Positions 1 to 44,823 of a stretch of 64,000 nt of DNA are shown here, piece by piece (position 1 is the first letter of the stretch; the number at the start of each line of letters is the position of its first letter). Under the pieces are notes generated by a model. It saw nothing but the letters and a program-made list of their open reading frames with translations, did not search any database and was not told the origin of the DNA. Origin of the DNA: Saccharothrix obliqua (GTDB lineage Bacteria > Actinomycetota > Actinomycetes > Mycobacteriales > Pseudonocardiaceae); the NCBI RefSeq assembly GCF_019375475.1, contig NZ_JAHXGQ010000001.1, positions 310,001 through 374,000 on the forward strand, in the 5' to 3' direction. A program made the translations under genes and the position numbers.

Positions 1-112
1 CAAGCGGTACGGTGGGCGTGTCACTCCGCTGGTGGCGATACCCGGCGGGTCAGTGCTTCCGATGTCGAGGAGAGCCAGCGTGGTGGATCGGCGGGGCGAC
101 GGTGACGAGGGC

Positions 113-850
113 GTGACCACCACCTCGAAGCCGCCCGCCGAGTCGCCCGTCGACGTCCGCGAGCGGGCCCGTGCCATCCCGGAGGCGGCCGTCGCGCGGC
201 TCGCCGTGTACCTGCGGGTGCTGTCCGGCATGGCCGAGCAGGGCGTGACGACCATCTCCAGCGAGGAGCTGGCGGGCGCGGCCGGGGTCAACTCGGCGAA
301 GCTCCGCAAGGACCTCAGCTACATCGGGTCGTACGGCACGCGGGGTGTCGGGTACGACGTCGAGGTCCTCGTGAGCCACATCGAGCGCATCCTCGGGCTC
401 ACCCGCAAGCACTCCGTCGCGGTCGTCGGGATCGGTAATCTTGGTCACGCGCTGGCCAACTACGGCGGCTTCCCCAGCCGGGGGTTCCCGGTGGCCGCGC
501 TGTTCGACATCGACCCGGACCTGACCGGTGTGCCGGTAGGCGGAATCCCCGTCGACCACATCGATGACATCACCACCGTGTGCGCCGAGCGGGAGGTCTC
601 GATCGGCGTCATCGCGACGCCCCCGCAGGCGGCTCAGGCGGTCTGCGACCGTTTGGTATCCGCCGGAGTGCAGTGCATCCTGAACTTCGCACCCGTCGTG
701 CTCCAAGTGCCGGACTACGTCGAGGTGCGCAAGGTCGACCTGGCGGTCGAGATGCAGATCCTGTCGTTCCACGTCGCGCGGCGGGCTGACGAGGCCGCCG
801 GTGACGTCGTCAACGGTGTCGGTGTGGACGGGGTGGTGATTCGCCCGTGA
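113..850 (+). CDS. rex: Redox-sensing transcriptional repressor Rex
   Basis: Rex represses respiratory genes when NAD+ is high and leaves DNA when NADH binds. The 245-residue product has the expected order: an N-terminal winged helix (about residues 15-85, with [20 protein letters not shown] and a [11 protein letters not shown] wing) and a Rossmann NAD(H) domain with [17 protein letters not shown] at about 104-120, ending in a helical tail ([13 protein letters not shown]). I chose GTG 113 because the product then has the usual family length; an in-frame ATG at 62 and a codon at 32 would add 17-27 unconserved residues. It lies 61 bases before hemA, the rex-hem arrangement known in Streptomyces. 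Perfect Rex operators occur at 44290-44307 and 44322-44339, before nuoA. Confidence 0.95.
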
Positions 851-911: not shown

Positions 912-2234
912 ATGAGCGTCCTGGTCGTCGGGCTGTCCCATCGCACCACACCGGTGCCCGTGCTGGAACGCGCCGCCGTCGCGGACGCCGACCTCGGCAA
1001 GGTCCTCGACCAGCTGCTGAAGGCGCCCAGCGTGTCCGAGGCCGTGCTGCTGTCGACCTGCAACCGGGTCGAGGTGTACGCCGTGGTCGAGAGCTTCCAC
1101 GGCGGCGTGAACGAGGTCGTGGAGGTGCTCGCCCGGCAGTCCGGCGCGGAGCCCGGTGACCTGTTCGAGAACCTGTACGTGCACTACTCCGCCGCCGCCG
1201 TGGAACACCTGTTCTCGGTCGCGGGCGGCCTGGACTCGATGGTGGTCGGCGAGGCCCAGATCCTCGGCCAGCTCCGCACCGCCTACAACCGGGCGGACGA
1301 GGCGGGCGTGGTCGGCCGCGTCCTGCACGAGCTGGTCCAGCAGGCGCTGCGGGTCGGCAAGCGCGTGCACGCCGACACCGACATCGACCACGCGGGCGCG
1401 TCCGTGGTGTCCGAGGCGCTCGCCGACGCCGCGCGCGCCCTGGGCGGCCTGGCGGGCCGCACCGCCCTGATCGTGGGCGCGGGCTCGATGGGCGGCCTGG
1501 CCGCCGCGCACCTGCGCCGCGCGGGCATCGGCGAGGTCGTGGTCGCCAACCGCACCGCCGCCAACGGCGCGCGCCTGGCCACCGCGCTGGCGGCGGACGG
1601 CGTGCGTGCCCGTTCGACCGGCCTGACCGACCTGGTGGACGAGATCGCGCGGGCGGACGTCCTGTTCGCCTGCACCGGCTCCGCGGAGACCGTCGTCGGC
1701 GCCGAGCTGATCGGCGAGCGCGCGCCCGACCGGCCGCTGGTCGTGTGCGACCTCGGCCTGCCCAAGGACGTGGACCCCGCCGCCGAGCTGCTGTCCGGCG
1801 TGCGCGTGGTCGACCTGGAGACCCTGCAACGCCGCCTGTCCGACGCGCCCGCGGGCCTGGACGCCCAGCGGGCGGCGGAGATCGTGGCCGAGGAGGTCCG
1901 CGGTTACCTGGCCGGGCAGCGCTCGGCCGAGGTGACGCCGACCGTGACGGCACTGCGCAAGCGCGCCGCCGAGGTCGTCGACGCGGAGCTGCTGCGGCTG
2001 GACTCGCGGCTGCCCGAGCTGGACGGCGCGGTGCGCGCCGAGCTGGCGAAAACCGTGCGGCGGGTGGTCGACAAGCTCCTGCACACCCCGACCGTGCGGG
2101 TGAAGGAGCTGGCCGCCGGCCCGGCCGGTGCGGGTTACGCCGAGGCGCTCCGCGAGCTGTTCGGCCTCGACCCGCAGAAACCCGCCGCCGTCAGCACCCC
2201 CCATTCGACGCGACCCAAAGGTGAGAAGCGGTGA
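912..2234 (+). CDS. hemA: Glutamyl-tRNA reductase
   Basis: This enzyme reduces glutamyl-tRNA(Glu) with NADPH to glutamate-1-semialdehyde, the first committed step of C5-pathway heme synthesis; hemL at 10006 supplies the next. The 440 residues begin [13 protein letters not shown], typical of the family. The nucleophilic cysteine is at about residue 50 in [14 protein letters not shown], a substrate-domain stretch ([20 protein letters not shown]) lies near 100, and the Rossmann motif [16 protein letters not shown] near 186. The C-terminal dimerisation helix contains [16 protein letters not shown] 912 gives the canonical N-terminus. Its stop overlaps the hemC GTG by four bases, suggesting translational coupling. 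Confidence 0.97.
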
Positions 2235-39195: not shown

Positions 39196-40311
39196 ATGGT
39201 GATCGGCGTGCGTGTAGCGATCGTCACGGAGAGCTTCCTGCCGCAGGTCAACGGAGTGACCAACTCCGTCCTGAGAGTGCTGGAGCACTTGCGTGCGCAC
39301 GGCCACGAAGCCTTGGTCGTCGCGCCCGGCGCGGGGGCCGACGAGCACTGCGGCACGCCCGTCGTGCGCGTGCCCGCCGTGGACCTGCCGCGGTTCAGTT
39401 CGCTGCCCGTCGGCGTGCCCACCCGCAAGGTGCTGAGCGCCCTGGCCGACTTCCGGCCCGACGTCGTGCACCTCGCCAGCCCGTTCGTGCTCGGCGCACG
39501 CGGCCTGTCCGCCGCGCGTCGGCTCGGGTTGCCGACGGTTGCCGTGTACCAGACCGACATCGCCGGGTTCGCGGGTCATTACGGGCTCGGGCTGACGGCT
39601 CGTGCGGCGTGGCGTTGGACGCGTCGCCTGCACAGCCAGGCGGATCGCACGTTGGCCCCGTCCACGTGGGCGGTGGAGGCGTTGCGGTCGCACGGTGTGC
39701 CTCGTGTGCACCGTTGGGGGCGTGGGGTCGACACGGAGTTGTTCGCGCCCGGTCGGCGGTCCGATGCGTTGCGGCGTGCCCTTGCTCCGGAGGGGGAGTT
39801 GTTGGTCGGGTACGTGGGGCGGCTTTCGCCGGAGAAGCGCGTGGAGCGGTTGCGTGCGCTTGAGGGCGTGCCGGGGGTGCGGGTCGTCGTGGTCGGCTCC
39901 GGGCCGGAGGAAGCGGCGTTGCGGCGTGCGTTGCCCGGTGCGGTGTTTCTCGGGTTCCGCGCCGGGGTCGAGTTGGCGGAGGCTTACGCGTCGTTGGACG
40001 TGTTCGTGCACACGGGGCCGCACGAGACGTTTTGTCAGGCCGTGCAGGAGGCGTTGGCCAGTGGGGTGCCCGTGGTGGCGCCCGATGCCGGTGGGCCTCG
40101 TGACCTCGTACGGGGGGATACGGGGTACTTGTTCGGGTCGGAGGAGGAGATGCGGGCTGCGGTGCTCGCGTTGCGTGATCCGTTGCGGCGCAAGCGGTAT
40201 GGGCTCGCTGCGCGGCGGTGGGTGCGGGGGCGGACGTGGTCGGCGGTGTGTGATGAGCTGCTGGGGCACTACGCCGAGGTGATCGGGTGGGGGGAGCGGC
40301 GTGTCGCATGA
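39196..40311 (+). CDS. mgtA: GDP-mannose-dependent alpha-mannosyltransferase, MgtA-like
   Basis: The GT4 family product (371 residues) matches mycobacterial MgtA (Rv0557) closely as I remember it: [109 protein letters not shown]. MgtA mannosylates glucuronosyl-diacylglycerol, a lipomannan-like anchor. ATG 39196, GTG 39199 and GTG 39208 are all possible starts. A nested palindrome lies at 39073-39099. The stop overlaps the next ATG. Confidence 0.87.
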
Positions 40312-41462
40312 GGATCGTGCAGCTCGCCAACTTCTACGGGCCGCGGTCCGGGGGGTTGCGCACGGCCTTGCACCACTTGGGGGCGGGGTACGCGGCGGCG
40401 GGGCACGAGGTGACGTTGGTCGTGCCCGGGGCGGCGTATGCCGATGAGCGCCTGGACCGCGCCACTTCTTCAGGTGACGCTTGTTCGGGTGACGCGGGGT
40501 CGCGCCCAGTTCGCCGAATAACGCTGCCCGCACCGCGAATCCCCGGCACGGGCGGGTACCGGGCGGTCGACCCGTGGCGGGTGCGTGCCCTGCTGGAGCA
40601 CCTGCGACCCGACCGGCTGGAGGTGTCCGATCGGCTGACGTTGCGGGGGATGGGCCGGTGGGCGGCGGCACGGCGCGTGCCCAGCGTCGTGATCTCGCAC
40701 GAGCGGCTGGACCGGTTGCTGGAGCAGTTCCTGCTGCCGGCGGCGTGGGCGCGGCGCGGGGCGGACTGGGCCAATGCGCGGATGGCGGCGTCGTACGACA
40801 CGGTCGTGTGTACGACGGACTTCGCACGCGAGGAATTCGACCGGATCGGCGCCCGCAACGTGACCCGCGTGCCGCTGGGCGTGGACCTGACGACCTTCAC
40901 CCCGCGCCGCCACGACCGGGCGTTGAAGGCCGACCTGGCGCGCGGGGCGGACGCCCTCCTCGTCCATTGCGGGCGGCTGTCGCCGGAGAAGCACGTGGAG
41001 CGCAGCATCGACACCGCGGCCGAACTCCACGCCGCCGGCCACCGCGTCCGGCTGGTCATCGCGGGCGACGGGCCGCGGCGCGAGTGGCTGGAGCGCCGGG
41101 CCTCCGGCCTGCCGGTCACGTTCCTGGGGTTCGTGGGTCGGCGGACCGACGTGGCGAACCTCCTCGCGACGGCCGACGTGTCCCTGGCCCCCGGGCCGCA
41201 CGAGACGTTCGGCCTGGCGGCACTGGAGGCGTTGGCGTCCGGGACGCCGGTCGTGGTGTCCGCGTCGTCCGCGCTGCGGGAGATCGTGCGCCCCGGCTGC
41301 GGCGCCGCGGTGGCCGACCACGCCCCGGCCTTCGCCGGGGCGGTGAGCGAACTGCTGGACAACCCCGAACCCACCCGCCGCTCGGCAGCCCGCGCTCGCG
41401 CCGAGGAGTACCCCTGGCAGGCGGCCGTCGACGGGATGCTCACCGCCCTCCGCGCCGCATAG
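40308..41462 (+). CDS. GT4 glycosyltransferase, PimC-like
   Basis: The 384-residue product has [20 protein letters not shown] at its start, [71 protein letters not shown], and the donor-site [20 protein letters not shown]. This pattern resembles the mycobacterial PimC phosphatidylinositol mannosyltransferase as I remember it; acceptor identity is inference. An extra Ser/Gly/Asp-rich stretch ([16 protein letters not shown], about residues 54-69) is unusual. ATG overlaps the mgtA stop, so both are probably co-expressed. Confidence 0.8.
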
Positions 41463-41909
41463 CCCCGCGCTGCGTAGCCCACGCCGCTTGTCCACCGGAC
41501 GAGTGCCCTTGGCCGACCATGCCGAGCCCAGGGGCGCATCGGCCGCGCCTGCCGCCAGCCGTTTGCTCGCGTGTGCCGTCGCGCGCCATCGGTCGCCTGC
41601 GTCTGCCGCGCCTGTCCGCCGCGCTCGCCGCAGGCCACCCAACGCTTGCCTGCCGCGTCCGCAGCCGGCACGCGCCCCCAACGGGGCCCCGGCCGGCGTG
41701 GCCCCCGCCGCATCCGCCGGGCCGGGGCCACGCCAGCCGAAGCCGCTCGCCGCGCCGGAGGCCGCCGGCGCTCCGTGGTCGCACCGCAGTCCCGCACCCG
41801 CACCCGCATTTGGGCAGCGTTCAACCTCGCGTGCGTGTGCCTGCTGCCTCTTTGCCTCCCGCCGCGCCGCCTCCTCTTCTCTACGGCAACGAATTCGCCC
41901 GCCGAAAAG

Positions 41910-41938
41910 TTTCCGGATCGCGGCCGTTTCGCTACATT
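41910..41938 (+). promoter_or_regulatory. SigA-type promoter candidate upstream of menG
   Basis: TTTCCG (41910-41915) and TACATT (41933-41938) are 17 bases apart. It would make a ~120-base leader for menG, in addition to the leaderless -10-like element, or an unseen small RNA. Confidence 0.4.
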
Positions 41939-42050
41939 AGGTGGCCTTTCGCATCCACGACAACCAACCGGGCCACTCACCCGACAGGGTGTTTGCGCTG
42001 GTCACAGCCACGAGCGGGTGGATGCTGTGCCGGCCTCTCCGGGCGTCACC

Positions 42051-42056
42051 TACCAT
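42051..42056 (+). promoter_or_regulatory. -10-like TACCAT for leaderless menG
   Basis: TACCAT ends six bases before ATG 42063; no Shine-Dalgarno sequence is present. Confidence 0.5.
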
Positions 42057-42062
42057 TTCCCC

Positions 42063-42764
42063 ATGTCGCGTGCAGGTCTGGACAAGAACCCCCGCGAGGT
42101 CGCCGAGATGTTCGACGGCGTGGCCAAGGGCTACGACCGCACGAACTCCGTCATGACCCTGGGTTTCGACCGGCGCTGGCGGGAGTGGAGTCGGCGGGTG
42201 TTGGACGCCCGGCCCGGGGAGCGGGTGTTGGACCTCGCCGCGGGCACGGCGGTGTCGACCGTCGAGTACGCGGCGTCCGGCGCGTGGTGCGTGGCGGCCG
42301 ACTTCTCGTTGGGCATGTTGCTCGGCGGGGCGCACCGGGCGGTGCCCAAGGTGGCCGCCGACGCGCTCCACCTGCCGTTCGCGGACGGGGTGTTCGACGC
42401 CGTCACGGTCTCGTTCGGCATCCGCAACTTCAGCGACACCGAGGCGGCGCTGCGGGAGATGGCCCGGGTGGTGCGGCCGGGCGGCCGGCTGGTGATCTGC
42501 GAGGTCTCCACGCCGACCTTCCGCCCGTTCCGCTACGTCTACATGCGCCACCTGCTGCGCCTCGTCCCGTTCACCGCGCGCTTCGTCTGCTCCAACCCGG
42601 ACGCCTACGACTACCTGGCCGAGTCGATGCGCACGTGGCCGGACCAGCGGTCGCTGGCGGAGATCATCTCGCGGGCCGGGTGGGACGACGTCGCCTGGAT
42701 GAACCTCACCGGTGGCGTGGTGGCGTTGCACCGCGCGACCAAGCCGGTCCAGCGGGAAGGCTGA
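42063..42764 (+). CDS. menG: Demethylmenaquinone methyltransferase
   Basis: This SAM-dependent enzyme (also called MenH or UbiE) methylates demethylmenaquinone to menaquinone. The 233-residue protein has [20 protein letters not shown] at the start, the SAM motif [16 protein letters not shown] near residue 58, [20 protein letters not shown], and [17 protein letters not shown] 42063 is preceded by a -10-like TACCAT at six bases. It precedes the menJ-like reductase, as in mycobacteria. Confidence 0.95.
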
Positions 42765-42786
42765 ACGGCTCTCAGCCACGCGCAAG

Positions 42787-42792
42787 TAGACT
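42787..42792 (+). promoter_or_regulatory. -10 element TAGACT of the menJ-like gene
   Basis: TAGACT predicts transcription start near 42799, 12 bases before the Rex-like site. No convincing -35 is seen. Confidence 0.5.
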
Positions 42793-42803
42793 CGCCTCGG
42801 ACT

Positions 42804-42821
42804 TTGTGAACCCAGGCACAA
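42804..42821. promoter_or_regulatory. Rex operator-like site before the menJ-like gene
   Basis: TTGTGAACCCAGGCACAA matches the Rex pattern TTGTGAA-N4-TTCACAA at 12 of 14 fixed positions (GG in place of TT in the right arm). It starts 12 bases after a -10 hexamer, as the first nuo operator does (12 bases), and overlaps the start of the RBS AGGAG. Confidence 0.5.
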
Positions 42822-42830
42822 GGAGCGGGG

Positions 42831-44108
42831 ATGACGACTCCCAGCCGCCGGCAGGCAGGCGAGGACGCCGAGGTGATCGTGGTCGGCGCGGGCCCGGCGG
42901 GCTCCACGGCGGCGACCTACCTGGCCCGCGCGGGCCTGGACGTGCTGTTGTTGGAGAAGTCCGTGTTCCCCCGCGAGAAGGTGTGCGGTGACGGGCTCAC
43001 GCCGCGCGGCGTGAAGCAGCTGGTCGACCTCGGCATCGACACCCGCGAGGAAGCCGGCTGGCTGCACAACCGGGGTCTGCGCGTGGTCGGCGGCGGCGTG
43101 ACGTTGGAGCTGGACTGGCCGGACCTGGCGACGTTCCCGCCGTACGGCGTGGTGCGACCGCGGCAGGACTTCGACGAGCTGCTCGCGAAGACGGCCCAGC
43201 AGGCGGGCGCGCGCCTGTTCGAGCAGACGACGGTGACGGGCGCGATCACCGAGAACGGCCGGGTCGTCGGCGTCACCGCGAAGACCGGCCCGGACAAGCG
43301 GGAGGTCACCTACCGCGCGCCGGTGGTGATCGGCTGCGACGGGGTGTCCGCGCGGCTCGCGCTGAGCGTCGGCCTCCAGAAGGACGACGCGAAGCCGATG
43401 GGCGTGGCGGTGCGCCGCTACTACGCGAGCCCGCGCACCAAGGACGACTACCTGGAGTCGCACCTGGAGCTGTGGGACCGGGCGAACGACGTGCTGCTGC
43501 CCGGCTACGGCTGGATCTTCGGCATGGGCGACGGAACCGTGAACGTCGGCCTCGGCATCCTCAGCACCTCCAAGGCGTACGGGACTACGGACTACCGAGC
43601 CCTCCTGCGGTCGTGGCTGGACGGCACGCCGGAGGAGTGGGGCTTCCGCGAGGAGAACGCCACCGGCCGGATCGGCGGCGCGGCGCTGCCGATGGGCTTG
43701 AACCGCAAACCGCACTACCGGGACGGCTTGCTGCTGGTCGGGGACGCGGGCGGCATGGTCAACCCGTTCAACGGCGAGGGCATCGGCTACGCCATGGAGT
43801 CGGCGCGGATCGCGGCGGAGACCGTGGTGCAGGCGATGTCGCGCACCAACTGGGGCCGGGAGCGGGCGCTCCAGGGCTACCCGGTGCGGATCGAGCAGGC
43901 GTTGGGCGGCTACTACCGGCTCGGCAACGTGTTCAGCCGCCTGATCGGCCACCCGACGGTGATGCGCACCGCGACCAAGTACGGCCTACCTCGGAAAACG
44001 TTGATGAAGCTGGTCCTGAAGCTGTTGGCGGGCCTTTACGACCCGAAGGACGGCGACTCGTTCGACCGCATCATCACGGCCGCCACGAAACTCACCCCTT
44101 CGGCCTAA
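42831..44108 (+). CDS. menJ: Geranylgeranyl reductase-family FAD protein, MenJ-like
   Basis: MenJ saturates one double bond of the menaquinone side chain in mycobacteria (Rv0561c). The 425-residue protein has the FAD motif IVVGAGPAGSTAATYLARAG near residue 14, FPREKVCGDGLTPRG (substrate-domain Cys), GVVRPRQDFDELL and the second FAD motif LLLVGDAGGMVNPFNGEGIG near 305. The ATG has AGGAG six bases upstream. The position after menG supports the menaquinone role; other geranylgeranyl reductases could share this sequence. A terminator follows, then nuo. Confidence 0.88.
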   Translation: MTTPSRRQAGEDAEVIVVGAGPAGSTAATYLARAGLDVLLLEKSVFPREKVCGDGLTPRGVKQLVDLGIDTREEAGWLHNRGLRVVGGGVTLELDWPDLATFPPYGVVRPRQDFDELLAKTAQQAGARLFEQTTVTGAITENGRVVGVTAKTGPDKREVTYRAPVVIGCDGVSARLALSVGLQKDDAKPMGVAVRRYYASPRTKDDYLESHLELWDRANDVLLPGYGWIFGMGDGTVNVGLGILSTSKAYGTTDYRALLRSWLDGTPEEWGFREENATGRIGGAALPMGLNRKPHYRDGLLLVGDAGGMVNPFNGEGIGYAMESARIAAETVVQAMSRTNWGRERALQGYPVRIEQALGGYYRLGNVFSRLIGHPTVMRTATKYGLPRKTLMKLVLKLLAGLYDPKDGDSFDRIITAATKLTPSA

Positions 44109-44130
44109 TCGCACCTCCTCCGATCGTCGC

Positions 44131-44154
44131 AGCGCCGGCTTCCAAGCCGGCGCT
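44131..44154 (+). terminator. Rho-independent terminator after menJ-like gene
   Basis: AGCGCCGGC (44131-44139) pairs with GCCGGCGCT (44146-44154) around TTCCAA, followed by the T-rich GTTTCGTTTT. It separates the men genes from nuo. Confidence 0.85.
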
Positions 44155-44246
44155 GTTTCGTTTTGGGTGTGGCCCGGTTCACCCCGAGGCCGCCGGAGCA
44201 TCGTTCAGCGGCGGGTATCCGCAGGTCAGCGGTACTGCGGGGGGTG

Positions 44247-44277
44247 TTGGTCACGCCTCTGTGTGACGTTCTACACT
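44247..44277 (+). promoter_or_regulatory. Candidate nuo operon promoter
   Basis: TACACT (44272-44277) is a good -10; TTGGTC (44247-44252) or the overlapping GGTCAC (44249-44254) could be the -35 at 19 or 17 bases. Transcription from about 44284 would place the Rex operators at about +6 and +38 and give a leader of about 175 bases. A second -10-like TAGGGT is at 44395-44400. The rest of the 349-base gap holds the two operators and a palindrome; no gene is seen. Confidence 0.6.
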
Positions 44278-44289
44278 GGCCCTCAGGTC

Positions 44290-44307
44290 TTGTGAATCAG
44301 TTCACAA
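44290..44307. promoter_or_regulatory. Rex operator 1 of the nuo operon
   Basis: TTGTGAATCAGTTCACAA is a perfect TTGTGAA-N4-TTCACAA inverted repeat, the Rex operator known from Streptomyces. It begins 12 bases after the -10 hexamer, where a bound repressor would block the start. Confidence 0.9.
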
Positions 44308-44321
44308 CCGGCTGTGATGCC

Positions 44322-44339
44322 TTGTGAACTGTTTCACAA
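44322..44339. promoter_or_regulatory. Rex operator 2 of the nuo operon
   Basis: TTGTGAACTGTTTCACAA is a second perfect site, with an extra C/G pair outside (44321, 44340). Its centre is 32 bases from that of operator 1, about three DNA turns, so two Rex dimers could sit on the same face. Confidence 0.9.
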
Positions 44340-44353
44340 GCGCCCGGCGGATC

Positions 44354-44369
44354 GTTAGGCACGCCTAAC
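44354..44369. promoter_or_regulatory. Unassigned palindrome in the nuo leader
   Basis: GTTAGGC and GCCTAAC are perfect seven-base arms separated by AC. It has DtxR/IdeR-like half-sites (TTAGG, CCTAA) but at a four-base spacing instead of nine. Confidence 0.5.
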
Positions 44370-44457
44370 TTCCGAAGGGCGCAAGAACACCCCTTAGGGT
44401 GCGCAACGGTCGGCTGTGCCACCACCACCGCGACACGCGAGGAAAGGACGACGTGGA

Positions 44458-44823
44458 GTGCTGGACCCTTACCTCCCCCTCGTATTGATGTTCGCCCTCG
44501 CCGCGGCCTTCGCACTGTTCTCGGTGACGGCCGCGCCCTACGTCGGCCCCCGCCGCTACAACAAGGCGAAGCTCGACGCCTACGAGTGCGGCATCGAACC
44601 GTCACCGCAGCCCGTGGTGGGCGGTGGCCGGATGCCGGTCGCCTACTACCTCACCGCGATGCTGTTCATCCTGTTCGACATCGAAATGGTGTTCCTCTAC
44701 CCGTTCGCGGTCTCCGCGGACCGGCTCGGCCTGTTCGGCCTGGTGGAGATCGCCCTGTTCGTCGCGACGGTCGGCTTCGCGTACGCCTACGTGTGGCGGC
44801 GCGGCGGCCTCGACTGGAACTGA
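44458..44823 (+). CDS. nuoA: NADH-quinone oxidoreductase subunit A
   Basis: NuoA is a membrane subunit of complex I near the quinone site. The 121-residue protein has three helices and the family loop KLDAYECGIEP with the conserved Glu-Cys, followed by VAYYLTAMLFILFDIEMVFLYP-type helix 2 (split here for length). GTG 44458 gives the standard N-terminus (LDPYLPLVLMFALA); AGGAAAGG lies about ten bases upstream. It heads the 14-gene operon under the two Rex operators. Confidence 0.95.
   Translation: MLDPYLPLVLMFALAAAFALFSVTAAPYVGPRRYNKAKLDAYECGIEPSPQPVVGGGRMPVAYYLTAMLFILFDIEMVFLYPFAVSADRLGLFGLVEIALFVATVGFAYAYVWRRGGLDWN

Follow-up and report, generated by a model that had tools for sequence, protein, structure and literature searches.

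A predicted Rex operator before a menJ-like gene of Saccharothrix and its recurrence among actinomycetes

Described systems closest to the locus

The closest described regulatory system is the Rex regulon of Streptomyces coelicolor and S. avermitilis, which involves a repressor of the same family and an 18-bp operator and has the target types nuo, rex-hem, and wblE in common with the Saccharothrix genome studied here (PMC5355995). The S. avermitilis targets named in the part of that paper used here are nuoA1, cyd, atp, rex, hppA, ndh2, wblE, and others; Rex binding was footprinted at the nuo, rex, and wblE promoters, and binding was better to probes with one or two mismatches than to probes that had three (PMC5355995). 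The words “menaquinone” and “geranylgeranyl” do not occur in its main text, and the menJ genes of the Streptomyces and Kitasatospora loci that we examined lack the Rex-type site, unlike that of Saccharothrix. A comparable gene order is found in Actinomyces oris, where a geranylgeranyl reductase gene (ggr) lies by nuo and adjoins ubiE, and where Tn5 insertions in ggr, nuoA, nuoJ, and nuoG define one class of coaggregation mutants (PMC5478893); by contrast, the word “Rex” is absent from the main text of that paper, the consulted part of which describes no operator (PMC5478893). As for the enzyme itself, mycobacterial MenJ, which reduces the beta-isoprene of MK-9, belongs to the same geranylgeranyl reductase superfamily as the protein encoded here and likely has the same class of substrate (PMC6305584), although the latter reaches only 249.9 bits with the curated MenJ model NF045655, whose cut-off is 700.

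Actinomycete descriptions have classically used partly saturated menaquinones as a marker. The five Saccharothrix strains tabulated in the portion of a recent article used here have MK-9(H4) as their largest fraction, and one of them also contains H2 and H8 forms (PMC12983401); the predominance of MK-9(H4) fits a side-chain reductase of the MenJ kind, the substrate being predicted. No link between Rex and menJ or geranylgeranyl reductase was found in the literature searched; subscription literature and regulon databases may mention it. Rex repression of respiratory genes is thus known, whereas menJ as a target and the menJ-nuo unit, both predicted, are new.

The menJ-like gene and its promoter

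The window, by which we mean the whole stretch of 64,000 nucleotides of Saccharothrix obliqua DNA analysed, contains rex at its left edge and the menJ-like gene between menG and nuo:

1..3, + strand: last 3 bases of the rex operator TTGTGCACACGTTCACAA, which spans the window's left edge (genome C1:309986-310003)
2..850, + strand: rex (NF003992, 378 bits, cut-off 226; PDB 2dt5, 182 bits)
912..2234, + strand: hemA, glutamyl-tRNA reductase, next after rex (NF000744, 578 bits, cut-off 429)
41571..42764, + strand: menG, demethylmenaquinone methyltransferase (NF001241, 358.6 bits, cut-off 327)
42787..42792, + strand: TAGACT, -10-like element of the menJ promoter (TAnnnT type)
42804..42821, + strand: predicted Rex-type operator of menJ, TTGTGAACCCAGGCACAA (consensus match)
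42822..42825, + strand: GGAG, likely ribosome-binding site read from the sequence, abutting the 3' end of the operator
42831..44108, + strand: menJ-like geranylgeranyl reductase family gene, 425 aa (TIGR02032 and NF045655 profiles)
44129..44156, + strand: intrinsic-terminator-like hairpin in the menJ/nuo interval (12 pairs, T-rich tail)
44272..44277, + strand: TACACT, -10-like element of the nuo promoter (TAnnnT type)
44290..44307, + strand: first nuo Rex operator (consensus match, 14/14)
44322..44339, + strand: second nuo Rex operator (14/14), 32 bp from the first
44416..44823, + strand: nuoA (NF005922, 181.7 bits, cut-off 155; ORF as listed)

The genome encodes Rex: the rex gene, whose frame is open to the left edge of the window, is the sole PF06971 match. 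The listed menG ORF is over-long, the family model starting at residue 165, and the NF005922 match to the listed nuoA ORF begins at residue 16. With 257.6 bits against TIGR02032 (cut-off 158.8), the menJ-like protein falls within the geranylgeranyl reductase superfamily; it is 91% identical to named Saccharothrix MenJ proteins, and a genome-wide profile search returned it as the best of 28 NF045655 matches (runner-up at 58 bits) and as the only strong MenJ candidate in the genome; its gene lies beside menG and nuo. The earlier note had labelled the gene menJ-like, a name that stands, although the score lies below the NCBI MenJ cut-off. We describe its product as a geranylgeranyl reductase resembling MenJ rather than as an established MenJ; its substrate and the positions that it reduces are predicted. 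On the 5' side of menG, positions 39196-41462 hold two adjacent GT4 glycosyltransferase genes; the best model for both is N-acetylglucosaminyl phosphatidylglycerol synthase, with scores far under the cut-off.

The 18-bp palindrome TTGTGAACCCAGGCACAA matches the Rex consensus TTGTGAAN4TTCACAA at 12 of 14 positions (two mismatches) and ends 9 bases 5' of the menJ-like ATG (42831), which confirms, at 42804-42821 on the + strand, the earlier observation of a Rex-like 12/14 site before this gene. Three Rex matches with up to 3 mismatches occur in the window, against a mean of 0.29 and a maximum of 2 in shuffled sequences (n=100). In the whole genome (8.04 Mb), six sites have at most 2 mismatches and a reversed-pattern control has none; two of the six belong to nuo and one each to rex, a WhiB gene, and menJ, plus one at C13:32357. 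The menJ site is therefore found among known Rex target types, since its companions precede nuo, rex, and the WhiB gene. It is, with its two mismatches, the weakest of the operators assigned in this genome; its GCACAA half-site recurs in the genome's own rex operator, and the footprinted rex operator of S. avermitilis also has a GCACAA half-site (PMC5355995). The WhiB-associated site (C1:764067, L177:1501-1518) lies 68 bp 5' of an 84-aa WhiB-family gene, a parallel with the wblE target of S. avermitilis, and the two-mismatch Rex-like site at C13:32357 (L178) is the only one of the six without an assigned target.

Within the genus (eight genomes), column identity averages 0.96 at the 14 core positions of the menJ operator, compared with 0.78 at the 4 middle positions and 0.54-0.66 in the upstream flanks. 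The sequence TTGTGAAC-N4-GCACAA is identical in 8/8 genomes at a constant distance from the ATG, while the flanks drift (two genomes share one promoter flank).

The spacing between the -10-like element and the operator is 11 bases for menJ and 12 for nuo, so that the same geometry claimed for both promoters in the earlier note is correct only to within one base. A TAnnnT element, mostly of the TAGACT or TACACT type, ends 3-17 bases 5' of the site in 49 of 50 representative site carriers (25 genera and 25 families; the 3-17 range was set after inspection of the histogram), against a mean of 1.4 and a maximum of 5 in shuffles. The distance from the site to the start of the menJ match ranges across taxa from about -12 to -208, the -10-like element staying near; it is thus the promoter, and not the reading frame, to which the operator is tied. 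At 11 bases past TAGACT, it occupies a position from which it could block transcription at the predicted start, and placement just 3' of a -10-like element is as would be expected for a repressor sitting over the transcription start. A sigma-70 scan of 42700-44460 gave no promoter-like match, and we claim no -35 element. Among the S. avermitilis operators in the part of the study used here, that of cydA1 was footprinted downstream of the start site, similar to the menJ placement, whereas those of nuoA1, rex, and atpI lie between -35 and -10 (PMC5355995).

Distribution of the site in the family and the class

MenJ relatives (at most 1e-80) are present in 117 of the 120 genomes of the family and a Rex match in all 120, so that absence of the menJ site there is not explained by absence of Rex. 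When the 290 bp 5' of menJ were scored at 70 family loci (a set that includes the paralogue G010b, left out of the genus counts), the best score was 11-13 in 41 and 9 or less in 29; dinucleotide shuffles attained at least 11 in 12/7000 cases and at least 12 in none, and coding windows at least 11 in 0/280. Taking one genome per genus, the menJ site occurs in 24 of 46 genera, 23 of which score at least 12. By hand tally, the 24 site-bearing genera are equally divided between those with a separate nuo operator scoring at least 12 (12 genera) and those without (12, of which G038 is borderline at 11). Among the 22 genera without a menJ site, 21 keep the nuo operator and one, represented by G002, has neither. 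The site is absent in 14 of the 15 genera of one clade and in all four genomes examined of g8, a genus close to that of the window. G002 (genus g3; loci L039 and L166) is a case apart, with Rex present and no Rex site before either menJ or nuo, possibly reflecting a changed operator.

Named loci illustrate these arrangements. Both the menJ site and the nuo site are present in three named Saccharothrix loci. A menJ site with nuoA near and no nuo site of at least 12 is found in the loci of Saccharopolyspora, Actinopolyspora, Pseudonocardia, Frankia, and Micromonospora, and three of these loci have a borderline nuo score of 11; one of two Actinoalloteichus loci fits the same pattern, and the contig of the other stops before nuoA. 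The Lentzea, Streptomyces, and Kitasatospora loci have no menJ site and, where nuoA is within reach, carry a site scoring 12-14 before it, except for the Kitasatospora locus L150, in which the best match is 1.4 kb from nuoA. In three metagenome-assembled loci (L107, L114, and L138) menJ lies beside nuoA and neither site was found. L235 is outside the scored loci, and locus L075 is 1 kb short at its end.

A wider view comes from the class, where 108 of 158 genomes, including that of S. obliqua, have a menJ match at 1e-90; none was found at this threshold in the 10 listed genomes of f2, a family of the same order. We sampled 80 of the 107 other matching genomes, with one match each, and dropped G123, which has no upstream DNA. 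A menJ site of at least 11 is present in 69 of the remaining 79 genomes and in 26 of 31 families. In the main class set (68 of the 79 genomes) scores are sharply divided, with at least 12 in 59 and 8 or less in 9; shuffles reach 12 in 1/3400. The conservation on orthologous promoters that the earlier note had asked about is thus strongly positive, in 24/46 genera of the family and 69/79 genomes of the class. The pattern that it had named as counting against the idea, loss of the menJ site with retention of the nuo sites, is indeed seen in 21 of the 46 genera, Lentzea among them, against the 24 that keep the menJ site; the menJ operator is therefore not universal.

Rex presence was not a clean predictor of the menJ site. 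Across the 79 class genomes, the site occurs in 65 of 73 with a Rex match and in 4 of 6 without, so that Rex presence alone does not predict it. The four genomes that keep the site without a Rex match are all drafts (G188, 94% complete; G238, 82%, for which the absence of Rex was deduced from a missing entry in the match list; G186, 76%; and G195, 73%), and the other two, G125 (99% complete) and G141 (93%), have neither Rex match nor site.

In most class genomes examined the site stands at the head of a compact gene group. In the main class set, nuoA is within reach in 64 of 68 genomes; 59 of these 64 have the site before menJ. In those 59 the median distance from menJ to nuoA is 83 bp (5-396), and 56 of them show no second site of at least 11 in the interval. 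The common arrangement in the class is a predicted Rex operator followed by menJ and by nuoA onward, probably co-transcribed since the gaps are short. With no second site between the two genes, nuo is probably also under the menJ operator in most of the class genomes examined, and menJ would then probably be the leading gene of a Rex-controlled complex I unit in actinomycetes. This suggests that menJ is the first gene of the nuo transcription unit in many actinomycete families.

Gene order in most class genomes examined also fits the idea that menJ sites exist only since menJ leads nuo. We rejected this as a general explanation: menJ lies ~19 kb from nuo in G008 and G010 and on a separate contig in four g31 genomes, and all six (three genera) keep the site at 12 or 13; at the window locus, menJ and nuo are separated by the hairpin (fold of 44112-44165, -27.1 kcal/mol, z -5.4). 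These six genomes and the hairpin argue that menJ here probably answers to its own operator. The best reading for the genus Saccharothrix is a split unit, with one predicted operator for menJ and two for nuo. A tree of 80 MenJ proteins (50 with the site) requires at least 14 state changes, compared with 24.3 for shuffled labels, as would fit a site of old origin that was lost repeatedly; it is a quick tree in which 29 forks are open and two branches are long, and its root state is unproven.

Candidate regulators and proposed function

We consider it very likely that 42804-42821 is a Rex operator through which menJ would be repressed, Rex binding being predicted from the conserved pattern and its genomic company. 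One competitor is a cAMP receptor site of the CRP/GlxR type, the consensus of which, TGTGA-N6-TCACA, overlaps that of Rex. Reading the sequence against this motif, TGTGAACCCAGGCACA agrees at 9/10 positions, Crp-like HTH proteins are encoded in 6/6 genomes tested, and the site is present in four drafts that show no Rex match. The motif is nevertheless not conserved as such when the 25 genera (one site each) are compared: at site position 2, where CRP requires T, only 12% retain that base and 88% have lost it, whereas the positions particular to Rex are nearly fixed (T at position 1 in 92%, A at position 7 in 100%, and T at position 12 in 96%). The companion sites at known Rex target types also count against CRP, as do G125 and G141, which possess Crp-like genes and lack both a Rex match and the site. 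From this conservation pattern we judge a CRP/GlxR site quite unlikely.

The sequence could instead be a decaying relic with little function in the genus, Rex acting on nuo through its double site. The two mismatches, the absence of the site in g8 and in 14 of 15 genera of one clade, and the two perfect sites of nuo would all agree with this; decay is, however, hard to reconcile with TTGTGAAC-N4-GCACAA unchanged throughout the eight genus genomes amid drifting flanks, or with the 12-13 of 14 positions retained by menJ genes away from nuo, and we regard a relic as improbable. A chance palindrome or an RNA-level leader element might be suspected from the location of the site in a short leader beside the ribosome-binding site. 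This was rejected, being strongly contradicted by conservation, by shuffles and coding windows that rarely or never reach the site scores, and by the distance to the menJ start, which varies from about -12 to -208 with the -10-like element near; there is also no T-run 3' of the palindrome, and the probability left to such an explanation is negligible.

With a Rex operator as the preferred interpretation, a simple regulatory scheme can be proposed. The operator lies just 3' of the -10-like element, over the expected transcription start, so that at low NADH, Rex bound there would block initiation or early elongation of menJ. As the NADH/NAD+ ratio rises, NADH would release Rex and menJ would be expressed, together with nuo, rex-hemA, and the WhiB gene, in whose promoters the same operator is predicted. 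At the genus level the unit is split: menJ, with its predicted operator, is followed by a strong terminator-like hairpin, and nuo has a promoter of its own that carries two operators.

Since the same Rex-type site stands before menJ in many actinomycetes, the finishing of the quinone is probably co-regulated with respiratory complex I, under predicted Rex control. The likely saturating enzyme would thereby come under the NADH sensor of complex I in 26 of the 31 families sampled, and our hypothesis is that saturation takes place when NADH electrons flood in. More tentatively, and with rather less than even confidence, we propose that menaquinone side-chain saturation is itself a Rex-regulated respiratory variable, the enzyme being made in step with complex I and the NADH load; in lineages such as Saccharothrix, a separate promoter and operator could let the H2/H4/H8 state be tuned apart from complex I, provided that the MenJ-like protein has the predicted activity and that its level changes menaquinone saturation.

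Two further traits of the operators deserve mention. In the menJ operators of the 25 genera, the two halves differ systematically: position 2 of the left half is usually A or C (TAGTGAA, TCGTGAA), while the right half usually reads TTCACAA; the nuo sites of the window have T at position 2. The tandem perfect nuo operators (44290-44339) lie 32 bp apart from start to start, that is, about three helical turns, which suggests cooperative binding or looping by two Rex dimers. The 32-bp spacing recurs in the Lentzea-like g8 and in many other genera, and a few have 20, 24, 33, or 34 bp.
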